Below the pieces are notes generated by a model. The model was not told the origin of the DNA and did no database searches. It was given only the letters and a program-made list of their open reading frames with translations. A program made the position numbers and the translations under genes. From an uncultured Desulfuromonadales bacterium (lineage in GTDB: Bacteria > Desulfobacterota > Desulfuromonadia > Desulfuromonadales > Geopsychrobacteraceae), in the NCBI GenBank assembly GCA_945787335.1, contig CALZHR010000041.1, forward strand, positions 1-64,000: 64,000 nucleotides of DNA. The letters are read 5' to 3'. Positions 4,704 to 11,851 of the stretch are shown in pieces; position 1 is the first letter of the stretch, and the number at the start of each line of letters is the position of its first letter.

Positions 4704-7040
4704 TCACAGTCGGGCGATGGTTTCGTTCAGCAGCGCCCGGATGCTGGTGCTGTCAGGCAGTTCGAGGAATTGTGCGGCAACCTGTTCGGCGGTCGGCAGG
4801 TCGACCTTGGCGATGAAATCCTTGAGCATCGGGATGTAAGGGGCGGAGAGGGAAAATTGGCGGATGCCCAGCCCGACCAGGGCCATAAAGCAGGCCGGGT
4901 CGGTCGACATTTCGCCACAGACGCACAGGTCGATCTGCTGTTCGCGGGCGACCCTGGCCAGGGACTCGAGGGAGAGCAACACTGCCGGGTGCAGCGGATC
5001 GTAGTAGCGGTGCACCAATGGATTGCCGCGGTCGGCGGCCAGCAGGTACTGTATCAGGTCATTGGTCCCCAGGGAGAAAAAGTCGACCTCTTTGGCCAGG
5101 TGGGGTGCCAGCCGGACCGCGGCCGGAACCTCGATCATGGCGCCCAGTGGAATCTCCTCGGCAAACGGGATCCCTTCCTGGCGCAGATGCTGCCTGGCGT
5201 CCTCGACCACCGCCTTGCAGCTGCGGATCTCCTCGATATTGGAGATCATCGGAAAGAGCAGCCGGATCGGCCCGTGCACCGCCGCCATCAGGATCGCTTC
5301 GATCTGGGTCTGAAAGATCTCCTGGTTGTCGAGGCTGACCCGCACCGAGCGCCAGCCCATGAACGGGTTGTCCTCCTTGGGCGGGGTGAAATAGGGCAGC
5401 GCCTTGTCGCCGCCGATATCGAGGGTGCGGATGGTGACCGGTTGGCCGGAAAAATCTTCGATGACCCGCTTGTAGAGCTGGTACTGGTCATCGCGGTCGG
5501 GAAAGCTGCTGCGCGCCATGTAGGGGAATTCGGTCCGGTAGAGGCCGACCCCTTCGGCGCCGTTGCGTTTGGCGATGTCGATGTCGCTGACCAGGCCGAT
5601 GTTGGCGAACAGCTTGATCCGCTCTCCGTCGGCGGTCGCGGCCGGGATGTCGCGCAGCTTGGCGAGCCGCTCCTGCTCTTCGATCCGGTCATGTTCGAGG
5701 CGGAAATATTCATCCAGAATCGAATCGGTCGGGTTCAGATAAACAGCGCCGGCATTGGCATCGAGGATCAGTTCGGCGTCCGGTTCGATCAACGAGACCG
5801 CACCCTTGACGCCGATCAGCGCCGGAATGCCGAGGGCCTTGGCCATGATCACCGAATGCGAGTTGGTCTCGTTCGATTCGATGATCATGCCACGGATCAT
5901 CGCATGGTCGAGGATCGCCATGTCGGAAGGGAGCAGGCGTTTGGCGATCAGAATCCCGGCATGGTGCAGGTGCAGCGACTGTGGTTCCTGGCCGACCAGG
6001 TTGGCGAGCAGGCGGCGGCCGATATCTTCCATGTCGGCGGCCCGCTCCCGCAGGTAGACATCCTCCATGGTGGCGAAGGCTTCGATATAGCCGCCGATGA
6101 CTTTTTTCAGCGCGTAGGGCGCGCTGTGGCCGTCGTCGATCTGATCGTGGAGTTTTTCGATGAAGCCGCGATCCTCCAGGATCATCAGGTGGGTGTGGAA
6201 GATTGCCGCATCTTCCTGCGTCAGCTGGTCGGCGACCCGTTTCTCCAGGTAAAGGGTCTGGATACGGGTTTTGCGCAGGGCCTCATCGAGCCGCTGGATT
6301 TCCGCCTCGGTGTCGACGTTCTCTTCATCAAAAACATCCGCCAGCCCATATGTCTGATCGATCACGTTGGCGGTGCCGGAAACCACCCCGGGGTAAGCGA
6401 CCGTGCCACGCAGGACCGCCATCTCCTGTTCACTGGTTTCATCATCGCTGCCGTTTGCGACTGCAGCGGTGCCCGGCAGGGCGCCCTGCGGCAATGAGAT
6501 ATGCTGTTTGTCGATGGCGTCGAGCAGGCGGGCGTTGACAACAATCGAAGCGACCTGGAAGGCGATGGTCGTGAGGGTGGAGATCTCTTCGTCGGTGTAG
6601 TGGTGGCGGTCGCGGGTCTGCACAACCAGAACACCGATCGGCTCGCTGCGGTCGAACAGCGGAATGCCAACAAAGGTGTGAAACTGCTCTTCGCCGGTCT
6701 CGGCAAAATACTTGTAGTGGGGGTGGTTCTCGGGTTCTTCGATGGCCAGCACGCGCCGTTCCTTGGCCACCTGTCCGGTGAGCCCTTCGCCGATCTTCAG
6801 GCTGACTTTGCCGATCGCCGCCTGGTCGAGCCCGCGGCTGGCGCGCAGTAACAGGGTGTCGCCGTCGGCTTCGAGCAGGTAAAGAGAGCAGACCTCGGAA
6901 TGAGCCCGCTCCGCGACCAGGTTGACGATGTTGCTGATCGTCTCGTCGAGGTCGTGGGACTGCAGGATCAGGGCGCTGATGTCCTGCAGGGTGCTCAGGC
7001 CAAGTCTGCGATCGGTTTTTTTGCGTGATTTTGGCGTCAT
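4704..7040 (-). CDS. ptsP: Phosphoenolpyruvate-protein phosphotransferase PtsP (nitrogen-PTS enzyme I with GAF domain)
   Basis: The 778-aa cytoplasmic enzyme takes phosphate from PEP and passes it to NPr in the nitrogen PTS, linking nitrogen or carbon state to regulation. A GAF domain covers about 15-175, then the enzyme I N-terminal domain (205-340), the swivelling phosphohistidine domain with His395 in ETNSHSVIMA, and the C-terminal PEP-binding TIM barrel with the catalytic Cys in CVCGEMSTD. The length is normal for the family. No good Shine-Dalgarno precedes the ATG at 7040. Upstream on the same strand lie a terminator, a sigma-54 promoter and an array of palindromes, which may control it through attenuation. 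Confidence 0.95.
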   Translation of the reverse strand: MTPKSRKKTDRRLGLSTLQDISALILQSHDLDETISNIVNLVAERAHSEVCSLYLLEADGDTLLLRASRGLDQAAIGKVSLKIGEGLTGQVAKERRVLAIEEPENHPHYKYFAETGEEQFHTFVGIPLFDRSEPIGVLVVQTRDRHHYTDEEISTLTTIAFQVASIVVNARLLDAIDKQHISLPQGALPGTAAVANGSDDETSEQEMAVLRGTVAYPGVVSGTANVIDQTYGLADVFDEENVDTEAEIQRLDEALRKTRIQTLYLEKRVADQLTQEDAAIFHTHLMILEDRGFIEKLHDQIDDGHSAPYALKKVIGGYIEAFATMEDVYLRERAADMEDIGRRLLANLVGQEPQSLHLHHAGILIAKRLLPSDMAILDHAMIRGMIIESNETNSHSVIMAKALGIPALIGVKGAVSLIEPDAELILDANAGAVYLNPTDSILDEYFRLEHDRIEEQERLAKLRDIPAATADGERIKLFANIGLVSDIDIAKRNGAEGVGLYRTEFPYMARSSFPDRDDQYQLYKRVIEDFSGQPVTIRTLDIGGDKALPYFTPPKEDNPFMGWRSVRVSLDNQEIFQTQIEAILMAAVHGPIRLLFPMISNIEEIRSCKAVVEDARQHLRQEGIPFAEEIPLGAMIEVPAAVRLAPHLAKEVDFFSLGTNDLIQYLLAADRGNPLVHRYYDPLHPAVLLSLESLARVAREQQIDLCVCGEMSTDPACFMALVGLGIRQFSLSAPYIPMLKDFIAKVDLPTAEQVAAQFLELPDSTSIRALLNETIARL

Positions 7041-7114: not shown

Positions 7115-7155
7115 AAAAAAAAACGCCGTCAAGGGGAGAGAGATCCTTGACGGCG
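7115..7155 (-). terminator. Strong intrinsic terminator between the sigma-54 promoter and ptsP
   Basis: A perfect 11-bp stem (7124-7134 with 7145-7155, CGCCGTCAAGG/CCTTGACGGCG) closes a 10-nt loop and is followed on the minus strand by nine T (7115-7123). Polarity is clear because the T-run is only on the minus strand. It lies about 60-100 nt after the predicted sigma-54 start and 75 nt before ptsP. Confidence 0.9.
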
Positions 7156-7213
7156 AAAGAGGGATGTTTCTGATCCGTTCGGGCGGGAACGGGATGGATC
7201 CCTATGCATTGAC
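7115..7213 (-). ncRNA. Candidate sigma-54-dependent small RNA, or terminated leader of ptsP
   Basis: The interval from the predicted start (12 nt after the GC of the -12 element) to the T-run gives a transcript of about 95-99 nt. It can fold into a 5' hairpin (CCGTTC/GAACGG, 7187-7192 with 7175-7180), a CU-rich single-stranded stretch at about 7156-7169 and the 11-bp terminator hairpin. This is the architecture of a regulatory RNA, and the CU-rich part could pair with Shine-Dalgarno sequences. Alternatively it is a leader whose terminator is bypassed under some condition to express ptsP. No homology to a known RNA family was recognised. Confidence 0.6.
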
Positions 7214-7223
7214 CAATTAAGTA

Positions 7224-7239
7224 AGCAATGGTTGTGCCA
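7224..7239 (-). promoter_or_regulatory. Sigma-54 (-24/-12) promoter
   Basis: The minus strand reads TGGCAC-AACCA-TTGCT. The GG and GC dinucleotides and their spacing match the RpoN consensus TGGCACG-N4-TTGCW except for one base. Transcription would start near 7213 and run towards the terminator at 7115-7155 and ptsP. The palindromic array lies 110-220 bp upstream, the usual range for enhancer-binding activators. Confidence 0.8.
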
Positions 7240-7313
7240 GGTTTGTAAAAATCGTGAAAAGCCGGGAAAAGACGCGTTTGATGTGGTTTGTGAAAAGAGG
7301 GAGGTGTGCAGGG

Positions 7314-7331
7314 TGTGCCATGTTTGGCACA
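7314..7331. promoter_or_regulatory. Upstream activator site 1 (perfect palindrome)
   Basis: TGTGCCA-TGTT-TGGCACA is a perfect 7+4+7 palindrome centred about 110 bp upstream of the predicted sigma-54 start. The same inverted repeat with another 4-nt spacer occurs upstream of the activator gene at 9779-9796. Confidence 0.8.
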
Positions 7332-7355
7332 GAGAATAGGCAGAATATTGGCGAG

Positions 7356-7374
7356 TGTGTCTTATCGCGGCACA
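7356..7374. promoter_or_regulatory. Upstream activator site 2 (degenerate)
   Basis: TGTGTCT-N5-CGGCACA resembles the other copies, but the arms are imperfect and the spacer is one base longer. It is centred about 150 bp upstream of the predicted start. It could be a weak or relic site. Confidence 0.45.
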
Positions 7375-7391
7375 CTAAGGTAAAAAAACCA

Positions 7392-7409
7392 CGTGTCATG
7401 AGTGGCACA
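7392..7409. promoter_or_regulatory. Upstream activator site 3
   Basis: CGTGTCA-TGAG-TGGCACA keeps the 4-nt spacer and one perfect arm; the other arm matches at 5 of 7 positions. It is centred about 188 bp upstream of the predicted sigma-54 start. Confidence 0.65.
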
Positions 7410-7422
7410 CTATTGTAGGGTT

Positions 7423-7440
7423 TGTGCCACGTTTGACACA
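7423..7440. promoter_or_regulatory. Upstream activator site 4
   Basis: TGTGCCA-CGTT-TGACACA has one perfect arm and a single mismatch in the other. It lies 4 nt beyond the activator stop codon and about 219 bp upstream of the predicted sigma-54 start. Confidence 0.75.
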
Positions 7441-7444
7441 TAAG

Positions 7445-9742
7445 TCAGAGGCTGCGGTAGGACTGGCTGTTGATCTTGTGCCGCTCCAGCATCCGGTAAA
7501 AGGTCCGGCGGGGAATATCTGCCAGGCGGGCGGCGGCGGAGACATTCCCTCGGCTCTTCTGCAGAAAATGGATCAGCAGTTCCGCTTCGACTTTGCCGGC
7601 CTGCTGGTCGCGTTGCTGGCGCAGGCTGCTGCTGTTTTCCAGCGATCCGCCCGCCTCCTGCTTGCGCAGCAGTTCTCCGAAAACCACCGGCAGCTGCTCC
7701 AGGTGAATGATCTGGTCCGGCGAGAGGACCACGGCCCGTTCGATGATGTTCTGCAGCTCGCGGATATTGCCCGGCCAGTGGTAGCACATCAGCGCCTGCA
7801 GGGCCGGTTGATCGATCTTGTGGATGGTTTTGTTCAGGCGCCTTGCGGCCCGGTCGAGAAAATGATCGACCAGCTTCGGGATCGCGATCACCCTGCTGCG
7901 CAAAGGTGGCAGGGTGATGGAGAAGACGTTCAGCCGATAGAAGAGGTCCTCGCGGAACCAGCCCTGGCTGATCCCTTCCTCCAGCTGCTTGTTGGTCGCG
8001 GCGATCACCCGCACATCGACCTGCACATTGCTGTTGCTGCCGACCGGCTTGATCTCGCCGCTGTCGAGCACCCGCAGCAGTTCCGCCTGCAGTTTGGGCG
8101 TGATGTCGCCGATCTCGTCGAGGAAAATCGTCCCGCCGTTGGCCGCTTCGAACAACCCCTTTTTATTGGCGATCGCACCGGTGAAGGCGCCCTTTTTATG
8201 CCCGAACAGTTCCGATTCGAGCAGGCTGTCGGTCAGGGTGGTGCAGTTGACCGTGACCAGCGGCTTGTCGGCCCGCTGGCTGGCTTCGTGGATCGAGCGG
8301 GCGGTCAGCTCCTTGCCGGTGCCGCTCTCGCCGCGGATCAGCACCGAGGTCGGGGTCGGCCCGACCTGCTGAATCAGATGCAGTACCCCTTGGGTGCGCG
8401 GGTCGTCGCCGATGATCACGGTGCCGTCGTACTCCTGGTCCAGAGCGCGGCGGGCCAGGTCGTATTTTTGCTCCAGGCGCGAGCGATCCTCCTCGAGCTG
8501 ACGCAGCGAGTAGGGCAGGCACATGCGGGTGTCGGCCAGCCCCTGGTAGACCGCGACGGCATGCTCGCGGCAGGTCGGATAGCCGCAGCTGGCGCAGTTC
8601 AATTCATCCTGCTCGGTGAACTTGCCGGTCTCCTGCAGGATCCGCTTGATGGCATCGCCGCTGGGGCGGTCGAGCTGGTGCAGCTTGTTGGAGAAGCTGC
8701 GGTCGAATTGCAGCTTCTCCGGAACGGACAGGTAGTGGGCGGACGGCTGGTAGGGGAGCTCGCGCTTCTGGTAGTCGATGATCAGGTTGCGCTTGGAGAA
8801 GGAGGTCAGCCGGTTGGTGCGGCCGGGGCCGCCGATGCAGCCGCCGTTGCAGAAGCGCACGTCAACATAGTGCGGGGTGATCCGTTCGGCGGAGAGGTCG
8901 CGGATCACTTCCATCGAGGCTTCCTCGCCGACGGTGGCGACAAAGTTCGGGTCCAGCCCGTTGTTGACGATGCCGAAATTGTTGAACGGCCCGCCGAAGA
9001 TGGAGAAGCTGCGGCCGCTGCTGGTCGGCAGGCCGGCGAAAGGGGTTTTGCCCAGTCGTTGCGGATCGATCTGCCGCTCTTTGAGCATCCGGTTCAGTTC
9101 GCGGTAGGTCAGGACGGTGTCGATGGCGCCTTTCACCGACTCGGAGGTGATTTCGAATTTGCCGCCGATGCAGGAGCTGATGTAGACCACCTGGGTTTCG
9201 GCGCCGCGATGAGCCTTGACGAAGCGACCGATGGCGACCATCGGCGAGACTACCGGGACCAGGTTCTTCAGCAGCTTCGGGTAGTGCCGCTCGATCAGGT
9301 CGACGACCGTCGGGCAGTGGCTGGAGATCAGCGGTCGGTCGGTTTTTTTCGCGATCAGCTCGCGGTATTCCGGAGCGATCAGCTCCACTCCCGCCGCCCC
9401 TTCGAGCACTTCATCGAAGCCGAGTTTTTTCAACGCGGTGACCATCTGGGCCGGCTCGACGTCGTAGAAGAAGGCCGGAAAGGAGCAACCGAGCACCGCG
9501 ACCACCGGATTTCTGCCGCGCAGGCGGTCCTCGGTCTCCTTGATCGCGTCGGCGATCACCTTGGCCTGCTGGGAGCAGACCTGGATGCATTTACCGCAAC
9601 CGATGCAGCGGTGATGAATGACTTCAGCCGAATCCTGAAAGACCCCGATCGCCTTGGTCGGGCAGTTGCGGACGCAGGCGTAGCATTTGCGGCAGCTTTT
9701 GCTGATCGTGGTGATCGGGCCGGTGCTTTCGTTGTGGGACAT
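7445..9742 (-). CDS. Sigma-54-dependent activator with ferredoxin and [FeFe]-hydrogenase-like sensor domains
   Basis: The 765-aa protein starts with two [4Fe-4S] ferredoxin motifs (Cys17/20/23/27 and Cys46/49/52/56). A hydrogenase large-subunit-like domain follows (about 80-310) that keeps all four H-cluster cysteines: Cys143 in SSHCP, Cys191 in SSCIGGKFE, and Cys298/Cys302 in CNGGC. Next is a further Fe-S motif (Cys383/386/391/408), then the AAA+ domain with Walker A GESGTGKE and the sigma-54 contact loop GAFTGA (518-523), and a C-terminal Fis-type HTH (about 728-760). It probably senses redox state or hydrogen. The cysteine used for proton transfer in catalytic enzymes is His142 here, which favours sensing over turnover. 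It ends 4 nt before the palindromic array. Confidence 0.92.
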   Translation of the reverse strand: MSHNESTGPITTISKSCRKCYACVRNCPTKAIGVFQDSAEVIHHRCIGCGKCIQVCSQQAKVIADAIKETEDRLRGRNPVVAVLGCSFPAFFYDVEPAQMVTALKKLGFDEVLEGAAGVELIAPEYRELIAKKTDRPLISSHCPTVVDLIERHYPKLLKNLVPVVSPMVAIGRFVKAHRGAETQVVYISSCIGGKFEITSESVKGAIDTVLTYRELNRMLKERQIDPQRLGKTPFAGLPTSSGRSFSIFGGPFNNFGIVNNGLDPNFVATVGEEASMEVIRDLSAERITPHYVDVRFCNGGCIGGPGRTNRLTSFSKRNLIIDYQKRELPYQPSAHYLSVPEKLQFDRSFSNKLHQLDRPSGDAIKRILQETGKFTEQDELNCASCGYPTCREHAVAVYQGLADTRMCLPYSLRQLEEDRSRLEQKYDLARRALDQEYDGTVIIGDDPRTQGVLHLIQQVGPTPTSVLIRGESGTGKELTARSIHEASQRADKPLVTVNCTTLTDSLLESELFGHKKGAFTGAIANKKGLFEAANGGTIFLDEIGDITPKLQAELLRVLDSGEIKPVGSNSNVQVDVRVIAATNKQLEEGISQGWFREDLFYRLNVFSITLPPLRSRVIAIPKLVDHFLDRAARRLNKTIHKIDQPALQALMCYHWPGNIRELQNIIERAVVLSPDQIIHLEQLPVVFGELLRKQEAGGSLENSSSLRQQRDQQAGKVEAELLIHFLQKSRGNVSAAARLADIPRRTFYRMLERHKINSQSYRSL

Positions 9743-9778: not shown

Positions 9779-9796
9779 TGTGCCACTGCTGGCACA
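9779..9796. promoter_or_regulatory. Perfect palindrome upstream of the activator gene
   Basis: TGTGCCA-CTGC-TGGCACA has the same arms and 4-nt spacer as the array beyond the gene's other end. It lies 37-54 nt before the activator start codon, within the 60-bp gap after oppF. No sigma-54 -12 element follows it, so it may be an autoregulatory operator rather than an enhancer. Confidence 0.7.
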
Positions 9797-9802
9797 GGTG
9801 TG

Positions 9803-10798
9803 TCAAGCTGTGTCGCGCCGCAGCAGGTAGCGACCGACCTGGTCCTGATGATGACAGGCGCTCAAGTGCTCGGAGCCGATGTCGTTCAACGGCGGCTGCT
9901 GCTGCCGGCAGACTTCGCTGGCATAGGGGCAGCGGGGGTGGAAGTAGCAGCCGCTCGGCGGCGCGACCGGGGAGGGGATTTCGCCGGAGAGCGGCGCGGG
10001 GCGCGGCTGGCCCGGGTCGGGGATCGGCACGGCGTTGAGCAGTGCTTCGGTGTAGGGGTGGCGCGGGTTGCGGTACAGCTCGTCAGCGCTGGTCAGCTCG
10101 ACGATCCGCCCCAGGTACATGACCGCGACGCGGTCGCTGACATGCTCGATCACCGCCAGGTCGTGGGCAATGAACAGGTAGCTGAGGTTATGCTCCCGCT
10201 GAATATCCTGCAGCAGGTTGAGGATCTGCGCCTGCACCGACAGGTCGAGGGCGGAGACCGGCTCGTCGGCGATGATCAGCTCCGGCTCCACCGCCAGGGC
10301 GCGGGCGATACCGACCCGCTGCCGCTGGCCGCCGGAGAATTCATGCGGATAGCGGTTTTCATGCTCGGCGGTCAGGCCGACCTTTTCCAGCAGCTCGATG
10401 ACCCGCTCGCGGATCTGCCGGCCGCGCGCCAGCTTGTGGATCACCAGCGGTTCGCTGAGGATGGCGCCGACCGTCATGCGCGGGTTGAGCGAGGAGAAGG
10501 GATCCTGGAAGATCATCTGCAACTGGCGCCGGTAGGGGCGCATGCGGCTGGCGGAGAGCTGGGTGAGGTCGGTGCCCTGGTAAAGGATCTGTCCCCGATC
10601 GGCCTTCTGCAGCTGCATGATCAGCTTGCCGGTGGTCGATTTGCCGCAGCCCGATTCACCGACCAGGCCGAGGGTTTCCCCCTGGCGCAGGCCAAAGGAG
10701 ATATCGTCGACCGCCACCAGCCGGCCGCCCGCCTGACCGAGGGCGCTGGAGACGCGAAAGCTTTTGCGCAGGTTTTTGACCTCGAGCAGGTTTGCCAT
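9803..10798 (-). CDS. Oligopeptide/dipeptide ABC transporter ATPase, OppF/DppF type
   Basis: The 331-aa protein has Walker A GESGCGKS, the ABC signature [15 protein letters not shown], Walker B and an H-loop, plus the C-terminal oligopeptide-transporter extension with cysteines (YFHPRCPYA) that often holds an Fe-S cluster. It would energise peptide import together with the upstream ATPase. The start at 10798 overlaps the oppD stop by one base (TGATG) and has GGAG 6 nt upstream. No permease or binding-protein gene is next to the pair, so the transported substrate is uncertain. Confidence 0.9.
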   Translation of the reverse strand: MANLLEVKNLRKSFRVSSALGQAGGRLVAVDDISFGLRQGETLGLVGESGCGKSTTGKLIMQLQKADRGQILYQGTDLTQLSASRMRPYRRQLQMIFQDPFSSLNPRMTVGAILSEPLVIHKLARGRQIRERVIELLEKVGLTAEHENRYPHEFSGGQRQRVGIARALAVEPELIIADEPVSALDLSVQAQILNLLQDIQREHNLSYLFIAHDLAVIEHVSDRVAVMYLGRIVELTSADELYRNPRHPYTEALLNAVPIPDPGQPRPAPLSGEIPSPVAPPSGCYFHPRCPYASEVCRQQQPPLNDIGSEHLSACHHQDQVGRYLLRRDTA

Positions 10799-11754
10799 CA
10801 GTATCTCCAGCAGCGGACCCAGTGCCCCGGGTGCTGTTCCTTGAGCTGCGGCAGCTGATGGCCGCAGGGCGCGCAGGGGCCGGGACAGCGGTCGATGAAC
10901 AGGCAACCGTCATGGTGTTCGCGCAGGTTCGGCAGCTGCCCCGGAATGGTCGGCAGGCTATCTTTGCGCCCCAGGCGCGGAATGCATTTCAGCAAGCCTT
11001 GCGTGTAGGGGTGCAGGGGCTTGTCGAACAGCTGGGTGACCTCCGCCATTTCGACGATCTGCCCGGCGTACATCACCGCCACCCGGTCGGCGTTGCTGGC
11101 GATGACGCCGAGGTCGTGGCTGATCAGCAGGGTGGCCATCTGCCGTTCCTCTTTGAGGCGGGTGAGCAGATCCATGATCTGCGCCTGGATGGTCACGTCG
11201 AGGGCGGTGGTCGGTTCGTCGGCAATCAGCAGCTTGGGATCGCAGGCCAGGGCCATGGCGATCATCACCCGTTGCCGCTGGCCGCCGGAGAGCTGATGGG
11301 GGTAATCGCGCAGCCGCTGCTGCGGGTCGGAAATCCCCACCTTGTTAAGTAGCTCGGCGGCCTCGGTCAGCGCCTGTTCGGGGTGCTGCCCCTGGTGCAG
11401 GCGCAGCACTTCGGCGATCTGCTCGCCGATCTTCAGCACCGGGTTCAGGGAGGTCATCGGCTCCTGGAAGATCATCGAGATCTGGTTGCCGCGGATGCGG
11501 CGCATTTCCAGCTCGGGCAGCCGCAGCAGGTCGTGGCCGTCGAGGCGGATCTCCCCCTGGACGATCTTGCCCGGTTCCGGCAGCAGCCGCAGCAGCGAGA
11601 GGGCGGTCATCGACTTGCCGCAGCCCGATTCGCCGACCAGCGCCAGAGTTTCGCCGCTGTCGATGGTAAAAGAGACATCGTCGACCGCTTTGACCAGCCC
11701 CGAACGGGTGAAAAAGTAGCTGCGCAGATTTTCAACTTCAAGTCGCTGTGGCAT
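10798..11754 (-). CDS. Oligopeptide/dipeptide ABC transporter ATPase, OppD/DppD type
   Basis: The 318-aa ATPase shows Walker A GESGCGKS, the signature [15 protein letters not shown], Walker [13 protein letters not shown] and the C-terminal Opp extension with cysteines in [12 protein letters not shown]. The ATG at 11754 has GGAG 7 nt upstream and begins at the conserved N-terminal strand; an in-frame extension to 11829 looks unlike coding sequence. It is the first gene of the minus-strand run oppD-oppF-activator and is divergent from tex. Only the two ATPases are present here, so partner permeases must be encoded elsewhere. Confidence 0.9.
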
Positions 11755-11823
11755 GCTGCACTCCGGTTGCGTGACTGCCTCATGTGTACACGCTCGACCG
11801 GCGTTGGTCAAGCATCCTTCGCT

Positions 11824-11851
11824 TTGCAATTGCCCTGCGGCGTGCTAACAT
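11824..11851 (+). promoter_or_regulatory. Candidate sigma-70 promoter for tex
   Basis: TTGCAA and TAACAT are separated by 16 bp and lie about 57 nt upstream of the tex ATG, in the gap between divergent oppD and tex. Confidence 0.45.

Follow-up and report, generated by a model that had tools for sequence, protein, structure and literature searches.

The window, that is, the whole stretch of 64,000 nucleotides that was analysed, comes from a genus of Desulfuromonadales that is Malonomonas-like, and its nearest named relative is Malonomonas rubra, strain DSM 5091 of which also has the locus (L039). On its minus strand a predicted small RNA gene lies between the gene of a sigma-54 activator and ptsP. 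Both neighbours had been named in an earlier note on this DNA, as a hydrogenase-like sigma-54 regulator and ptsP, and domain matches agree with this. The features of the locus, in minus-strand order, are as follows.

10798-11829, minus strand: dppD, the first gene in this order
9803-10906, minus strand: dppF, between dppD and the activator gene
9779-9796: putative activator palindrome TGTGCCACTGCTGGCACA, 0 mismatches, immediately 5' of the activator gene start
7445-9742, minus strand: sigma-54 activator gene, 765 aa, with two ferredoxin-like clusters, [FeFe]-hydrogenase-like and FeS domains, AAA+ with GAFTGA, and a Fis-type HTH
Between activator gene and RNA gene: palindrome-bearing stretch of about 230 bp
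7423-7440: putative activator palindrome TGTGCCACGTTTGACACA, 1 mismatch to TGTGCCA-N4-TGGCACA
7392-7409: putative activator palindrome CGTGTCATGAGTGGCACA, 2 mismatches to TGTGCCA-N4-TGGCACA
7314-7331: putative activator palindrome TGTGCCATGTTTGGCACA, 0 mismatches to TGTGCCA-N4-TGGCACA
7225-7239, minus strand: sigma-54 (-24/-12) promoter TGGCACAACCATTGC, exact TGGCAC-N5-TTGCT
7115-7213, minus strand: small RNA gene of about 99 nt, 5' end predicted (+/- 2 nt), covariance model match
7160-7203, minus strand: 5' stem-loop of the RNA, AGGGAU/AUCCCU around CCGUUC-CCGCCC-GAACGG, from folding and covariation
7124-7155, minus strand: terminator hairpin of 11 bp, then nine T at 7123-7115, from folding and covariation
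7135-7143, minus strand: proposed seed UCUCUCUCC in the terminator loop, complement of GGAGAGAGA within this genome's own gltA ribosome-binding site
4704-7040, minus strand: ptsP, 3' neighbour of the RNA gene, outside the unit

The consensus -24/-12 promoter that had been reported on the minus strand is exact at 7239-7225, and it is the sole match to TGGCA[CT]N5[CT]TGC[AT] on both strands of the 64 kb. A -24/-12 element is found at the equivalent position in the relatives (75 loci of the order). Four activator palindromes had also been claimed upstream of it. Three of them (7314-7331, 7392-7409 and 7423-7440) were recovered, whereas the one at about 150 bp is merely a loose AGTGTG-N11-CACACT (7354-7376), outside the spacings commonest in the relatives (90-110, 160-180 and about 200 bp upstream of the -24 element). 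With up to 2 mismatches to TGTGCCA-N4-TGGCACA allowed, the 64-kb window contains only 4 sites, at 7314, 7392, 7423 and 9779, against a mean of 0.2 in the shuffled window; the last of these had been overlooked. At the same threshold, at least one palindrome lies 5' of the promoter in 72 of the 75 loci of relatives and at least two in 51, compared with 0.0007 per locus after shuffling. The position of the perfect palindrome at 9779-9796, just 5' of the activator gene start, suggests that this gene is autoregulated, which we consider likely; palindromes near the activator gene start were also seen in four relatives (G016, G034, G063 and G075). When ten relatives were searched genome-wide, near-perfect palindromes clustered at the RNA/activator locus, including the site near the activator start, and this concentration suggests that the RNA is a main output of the activator. 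That the adjacent activator binds the palindromes is inferred, as there are no binding data.

Folding of the predicted RNA gives two hairpins and a minimum free energy of -34.7 kcal/mol (z -4.9; 0 of 200 shuffles equally stable). The 5' hairpin and the terminator with an 11-bp stem and nine T are those that the earlier note had described, and the terminator loop is 10 nt long. The RNA alignment is based on promoter-plus-RNA segments taken from 75 different loci in the order; the RNAs are 87-122 nt long and alignable over their length, and no conserved ORF was seen in the alignment. The covariance model built for this RNA (R1) gave the window RNA 81.4 bits (E 1.5e-16, whole genome) and, at E<=2.3e-7, located it in 88 of the 136 genomes of the order Desulfuromonadales, at a single such place in each. 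In the same kind of search, no genome of the sister order Geobacterales gave a match better than E=0.001, the RNA was not found elsewhere in the class, and among 395 genomes sampled across the phylum matches (E<=1e-4) were confined to Desulfuromonadales. No Rfam 15 family matched the window or 11 relatives at the gathering threshold. LhrC, a Listeria sRNA with CU-rich loops, was the best weak match (RF00616; 21.7 bits versus gathering 110, E about 1) and was rejected, as was anti-hemB, also sub-threshold (18.5 versus 49.5). No report of this RNA family was found in the literature searched, the coverage of which was partial.

The activator consists of Fer4, Fe_hyd_lg_C, FeS, Sigma54_activat and HTH_8 domains and has full-length orthologues throughout the class. 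When only full-length proteins (E<1e-200) were counted as present, 81 genomes had both activator and RNA, 0 had the activator without the RNA, 7 had the RNA without the activator and 48 had neither. The sigma-54 contact motif GAFTGA is intact in the window protein and strongly conserved among orthologues. Across 64 orthologues, 16 Cys do not vary: 8 in two ferredoxin-like motifs, 4 in the [FeFe]-hydrogenase-like domain and 4 in the FeS domain. Like the sensory [FeFe]-hydrogenases of the HydS type, the activator has a homologous sensor domain and retains four cluster-ligand Cys, and the cubane-ligand Cys C143, C191, C298 and C302 are invariant in the 64 proteins. It differs from them in that the H-cluster pocket is degenerate in the alignment, with His for the proton-relay Cys (TSCCP to SSHCP) and Gly at the active-site Lys position (PCxxK to SCIGG), and in that HydF is absent. 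HydF is required to build the H-cluster. It was without a match in 79 of the 81 activator-bearing genomes, being present only in G124 and G029 (with stop codons) and not in G000; of the maturases HydEFG, only HydF was searched for. Because HydF is missing and the proton-relay Cys and active-site Lys are replaced, we regard the activator as a probable Fe-S redox sensor rather than a classical H2-binding one, and H2 sensing through an H-cluster was rejected. Of the suggested redox or hydrogen sensor, the redox half is favoured, with the 16 Cys being invariant. A clade with HydF (family f17, G109-G122) lacks the RNA, a full-length activator and GGAGAGAG at gltA.

In Geobacterales the orthologous activator gene is followed by the same palindromes (37 of 41 loci), a -24/-12-type promoter and a gene for a protein of about 60 aa (MGRMRENPRYNVISMRISDEER...), which is ribbon-helix-helix (RHH)-like but under the Pfam threshold and whose ORF is present at the 41 loci. 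In Geobacter, an RpoN promoter has been predicted for GSU3364, with the gene of an enhancer-binding activator upstream (PMC2725144), and GSU3364 is HgtR, which is induced by H2 and represses citrate synthase (gltA) and other energy genes (PMC7894505, PMC7726332). From the synteny with this published context, the Geobacterales protein is with high probability HgtR, although no comparison with the GSU3364 sequence stands behind this. HgtR and the window RNA are alike in their equivalent position after an orthologous activator, the shared palindromes and the -24/-12 promoter; they differ in that HgtR is a small RHH-like protein repressor and the product in the window is an RNA. This raises the possibility of an exchange of effectors: a single Fe-S sigma-54 activator, its DNA sites and chromosomal position unchanged, would control citrate synthase by way of HgtR in Geobacterales but of a base-pairing sRNA in Desulfuromonadales. 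We consider such an exchange about as likely as not. One Geobacterales genome (G235) has two full-length activator copies (L175 and L176), and an RHH gene follows just one of them. HgtR-like RHH genes also occur elsewhere in several Desulfuromonadales (L402-L411 and L418-L428, e.g. G042:C1:2069214-2069375). Their upstream regions contain a strong -24/-12 promoter, about 90 bp before the start, and a palindrome of the TGTGCCA-N4-TGGCACA type at about 257 bp; the genes are therefore a second probable target, and in those genomes the activator probably controls both the RNA and the HgtR-like protein.

Since gltA is the published target of HgtR, it was inspected as a candidate target of the RNA. 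In 24 of the 25 genomes with the RNA that were compared, the terminator loop CUCUCUCC is perfectly complementary over 8 nt to GGAGAGAG, the ribosome-binding site of gltA. The site in these genomes reads AAGGAGAGAG, a perfect complement to 8-11 nt of the loop, and the 24 sites span many families with diverged upstream sequence; the exception, G034, has a 7-nt match. In the window's own genome the perfect match is 9 nt long, and the loop of the window RNA has an unpaired probability of 0.98-1.0. The loop duplex with gltA amounts to -16.4 kcal/mol, but 2 of 63 ORF starts in the window score equally well, so the gltA match is good, not unique. Duplex energies of the full-length RNA did not single out gltA, and the target claim therefore rests on the loop seed.

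On this basis, with moderate confidence, we interpret the RNA as a sigma-54-dependent trans-acting sRNA under the adjacent Fe-S activator that represses gltA post-transcriptionally, as an RNA counterpart of HgtR; its expression, signal and repressive effect are inferred. When electron donors (H2 or formate) are plentiful, the cell would become reduced and the Fe-S clusters of the activator would change. The activator, on its TGTGCCA-N4-TGGCACA sites, would then drive the sigma-54 promoter, and the RNA of about 99 nt would expose CUCUCUCC in its terminator loop and pair with GGAGAGAG of the gltA ribosome-binding site. Such pairing is predicted to block translation of gltA, and probably also of other acetate-oxidation genes (those for malate dehydrogenase, mdh, and succinyl-CoA:acetate CoA-transferase), and entry of acetyl-CoA into the cycle would be slowed while H2 or formate provides electrons. 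This putative action at the RNA level would parallel that of HgtR, made from the equivalent Geobacterales locus, at the promoter level. The gene, its conservation, structure, sites and co-occurrence, the swap and the complementarity were computed, and the signal, binding, transcription and repression are inferences from them. If the loop-gltA pairing is under selection, lineages with the loop UUCUCUCC are expected to show GGAGAGAA at gltA.

It is also possible, although we think it unlikely, that the sRNA is real and controlled by the activator but has other mRNA targets, or titrates an RNA-binding protein with its CU-rich loops, and that the match to gltA is only a by-product of ribosome-binding sites being strong and conserved. 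A CU-rich loop is able to pair with many purine-rich ribosome-binding sites, and this one looks like a generic anti-Shine-Dalgarno sequence; the AGAG extension, however, exceeds the pairing reach of the 16S anti-Shine-Dalgarno. Fumarase, which GGAGAGAGATC precedes in three genomes, was tried as a target and gave near-matches regardless of RNA presence, the ribosome-binding sites being nearly identical in genomes with and without the RNA, and it was dropped as evidence. An order-wide search of start-codon regions for the 11-nt complement of the loop yielded mostly singletons and the RNA gene itself. The distribution of the full GGAGAGAG at gltA argues against a by-product: it is found in 0 of 21 Geobacterales, where the sites are GGAGAG[TC], GGAGAT, GGAGAA and similar, and in 0 of 6 genomes of family f17, which have no RNA, and it is also missing in G134. 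The Fisher P values are 3e-12 (RNA-bearing versus Geobacterales) and 1e-4 (within the order), uncorrected for phylogeny, and the order-level contrast is phylogenetically non-independent. There are counter-cases on the other side, since G050 and G088 keep GGAGAGAG at gltA without the RNA, and the draft G127 keeps it too. In the finished genome G063, about 14 convincing genes have GGAGAGAG beside the start and 3 of them are gltA, mdh and the gene for succinyl-CoA:acetate CoA-transferase, an over-representation of citric-acid-cycle genes (P about 2e-5 if 15 of 3,700 genes are taken to serve acetate oxidation) that again speaks for the proposed pairing with gltA.

In two genera of the window's family that have lost the locus (g3 and g9; L239 and L240), the 3' ends of other transcripts carry CUCUCUCC or related CU-rich hairpin loops (GGAACUCUCUCC; CACUCUCUCC and GGAUCUCCUCC). 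These weak matches to the RNA model (27-35 bits) have just the CU loop in common with the RNA. They might be substitutes for it, and the retention of GGAGAGAG at gltA in these genomes could be due to this.

Transcription of sRNAs from sigma-54 promoters under NtrC-type activators is already known (PMC8657755, PMC7073468). The window locus meets what characterizes sRNAs of the CrcZ, GlmY and Qrr kind, namely a -24/-12 promoter at the right distance, upstream activator-type sites and a structured, non-coding, terminated unit, the transcript being inferred. In Pseudomonas and Azotobacter, the NtrC-family sigma-54 activator CbrB drives CrcZ/CrcY, which retune carbon metabolism (PMC8657755). The two systems are alike in the family of the activator and in having an sRNA as output; CbrB-type activators, however, have a receiver where the window activator has Fe-S domains, and CrcZ sequesters Crc/Hfq whereas the window RNA is shorter, with a CU-rich loop matching gltA. 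The sigma-54 promoter of the enterobacterial sRNA GlmY absolutely requires its activator QseF (GlrR) (PMC7073468). GlmY is a decoy for RapZ and has no sequence relation to the window RNA. The pairing site of RepG, a Helicobacter pylori sRNA, is its pyrimidine-rich terminator loop. RepG acts on a G-rich stretch in the leaders of its mRNAs, with which it pairs to control expression (PMC8295292). It differs from the window RNA in targeting G-repeats rather than the GGAGAGAG ribosome-binding site, and there is no relation in sequence, structure or host. To our knowledge, neither a swap of RNA and protein under one activator nor an Fe-S activator of an sRNA has been described, few small RNAs are described from the metal- and sulfur-reducing Desulfuromonadia, and throttling of acetate oxidation under H2 or formate is known in this class only via HgtR in Geobacter. 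The family has about 90 orthologues, for which a sensor and its DNA sites, a structure and one specific, testable target can be named; if true, it would be a rare case of orthologous control points that rely on an RNA in one of two sister lineages and on a protein in the other.

A conserved promoter and terminator could also stand at the locus without a functional RNA, as transcriptional noise or as insulation 3' of the regulator gene. Expression data are absent, which leaves room for this, but we judge it very improbable because the 5' helix covaries as well as the terminator, because the loop is nearly invariant although loops normally vary freely, and because the RNA outlives loss of the regulator. 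In the model-fitted alignment, the covariation score of both helices was 0.303, compared with 0.150 +/- 0.007 in shuffles (0 of 500 reached it) and 0.06-0.11 in slid controls. Double-sided changes occur at 3 of 5 pairs of the 5' stem and at 7 of 10 pairs of the terminator, in which 98% of cells are paired; the terminator result (7 of 10 pairs) was also obtained on a plain MAFFT alignment. The loop CUCUCUCC is present in 70 of 75 RNAs, as is the seed-region sequence CTCTCTCC, and the variant loop UUCUCUCC occurs at three loci (L079, L081 and L133). The search of related genomes for this arrangement with a covarying RNA, which the earlier note had proposed as a check, was thus successful: promoter, palindromes and terminator recur with the RNA, 88 of the 136 genomes of the order having it.

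In seven genomes (G047, G093, G094, G132, G133, G024 and G084) the activator gene is gone and the RNA is kept, with dppF directly 5' of it. Most of the activator-less loci keep the -24/-12 element without clear palindromes, so either another activator serves them or the promoter is decaying. Several other loci have the RNA without ptsP next to it (e.g. L057, L060, L065, L072, L079 and L090) or with an extra gene in between (L231). Neither neighbour therefore accounts for the conservation of the RNA. That the RNA is merely a terminated leader with read-through controlling ptsP, the second option of the earlier note, is scarcely credible: ptsP does lie downstream in the same orientation at most loci, but the RNA is retained where the activator gene is absent or ptsP is non-adjacent or separated by a gene, and the consensus fold shows no conserved pairing alternative to the terminator. 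The other option, a new regulatory RNA, is strongly supported by the conservation, the covariation and this persistence. We concluded that 7115-7213 on the minus strand is a sigma-54-type small-RNA gene and no ptsP leader, its transcription being inferred.

The order dppF - RNA - ptsP (L228-L234) arose by loss of the activator gene, which happened at least several times. Further weak matches to the RNA model, L235-L238, scored in the same range of 27-35 bits; on inspection they proved to be terminators with no relation to the RNA, or a different RNA. Three of these loci (L236, 2168-2249 on the plus strand; L237 and L238 on the minus strand) carry a different, near-identical RNA-like element, AACCATCAACAGCAGGAAACGGTTTTTCCACA...CCTCCTAC plus a terminator, found in several Desulfuromonas-type genomes. 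This element is located about 100 bp 3' of a recurring ORF of about 120 aa (MAKPGKTG...).
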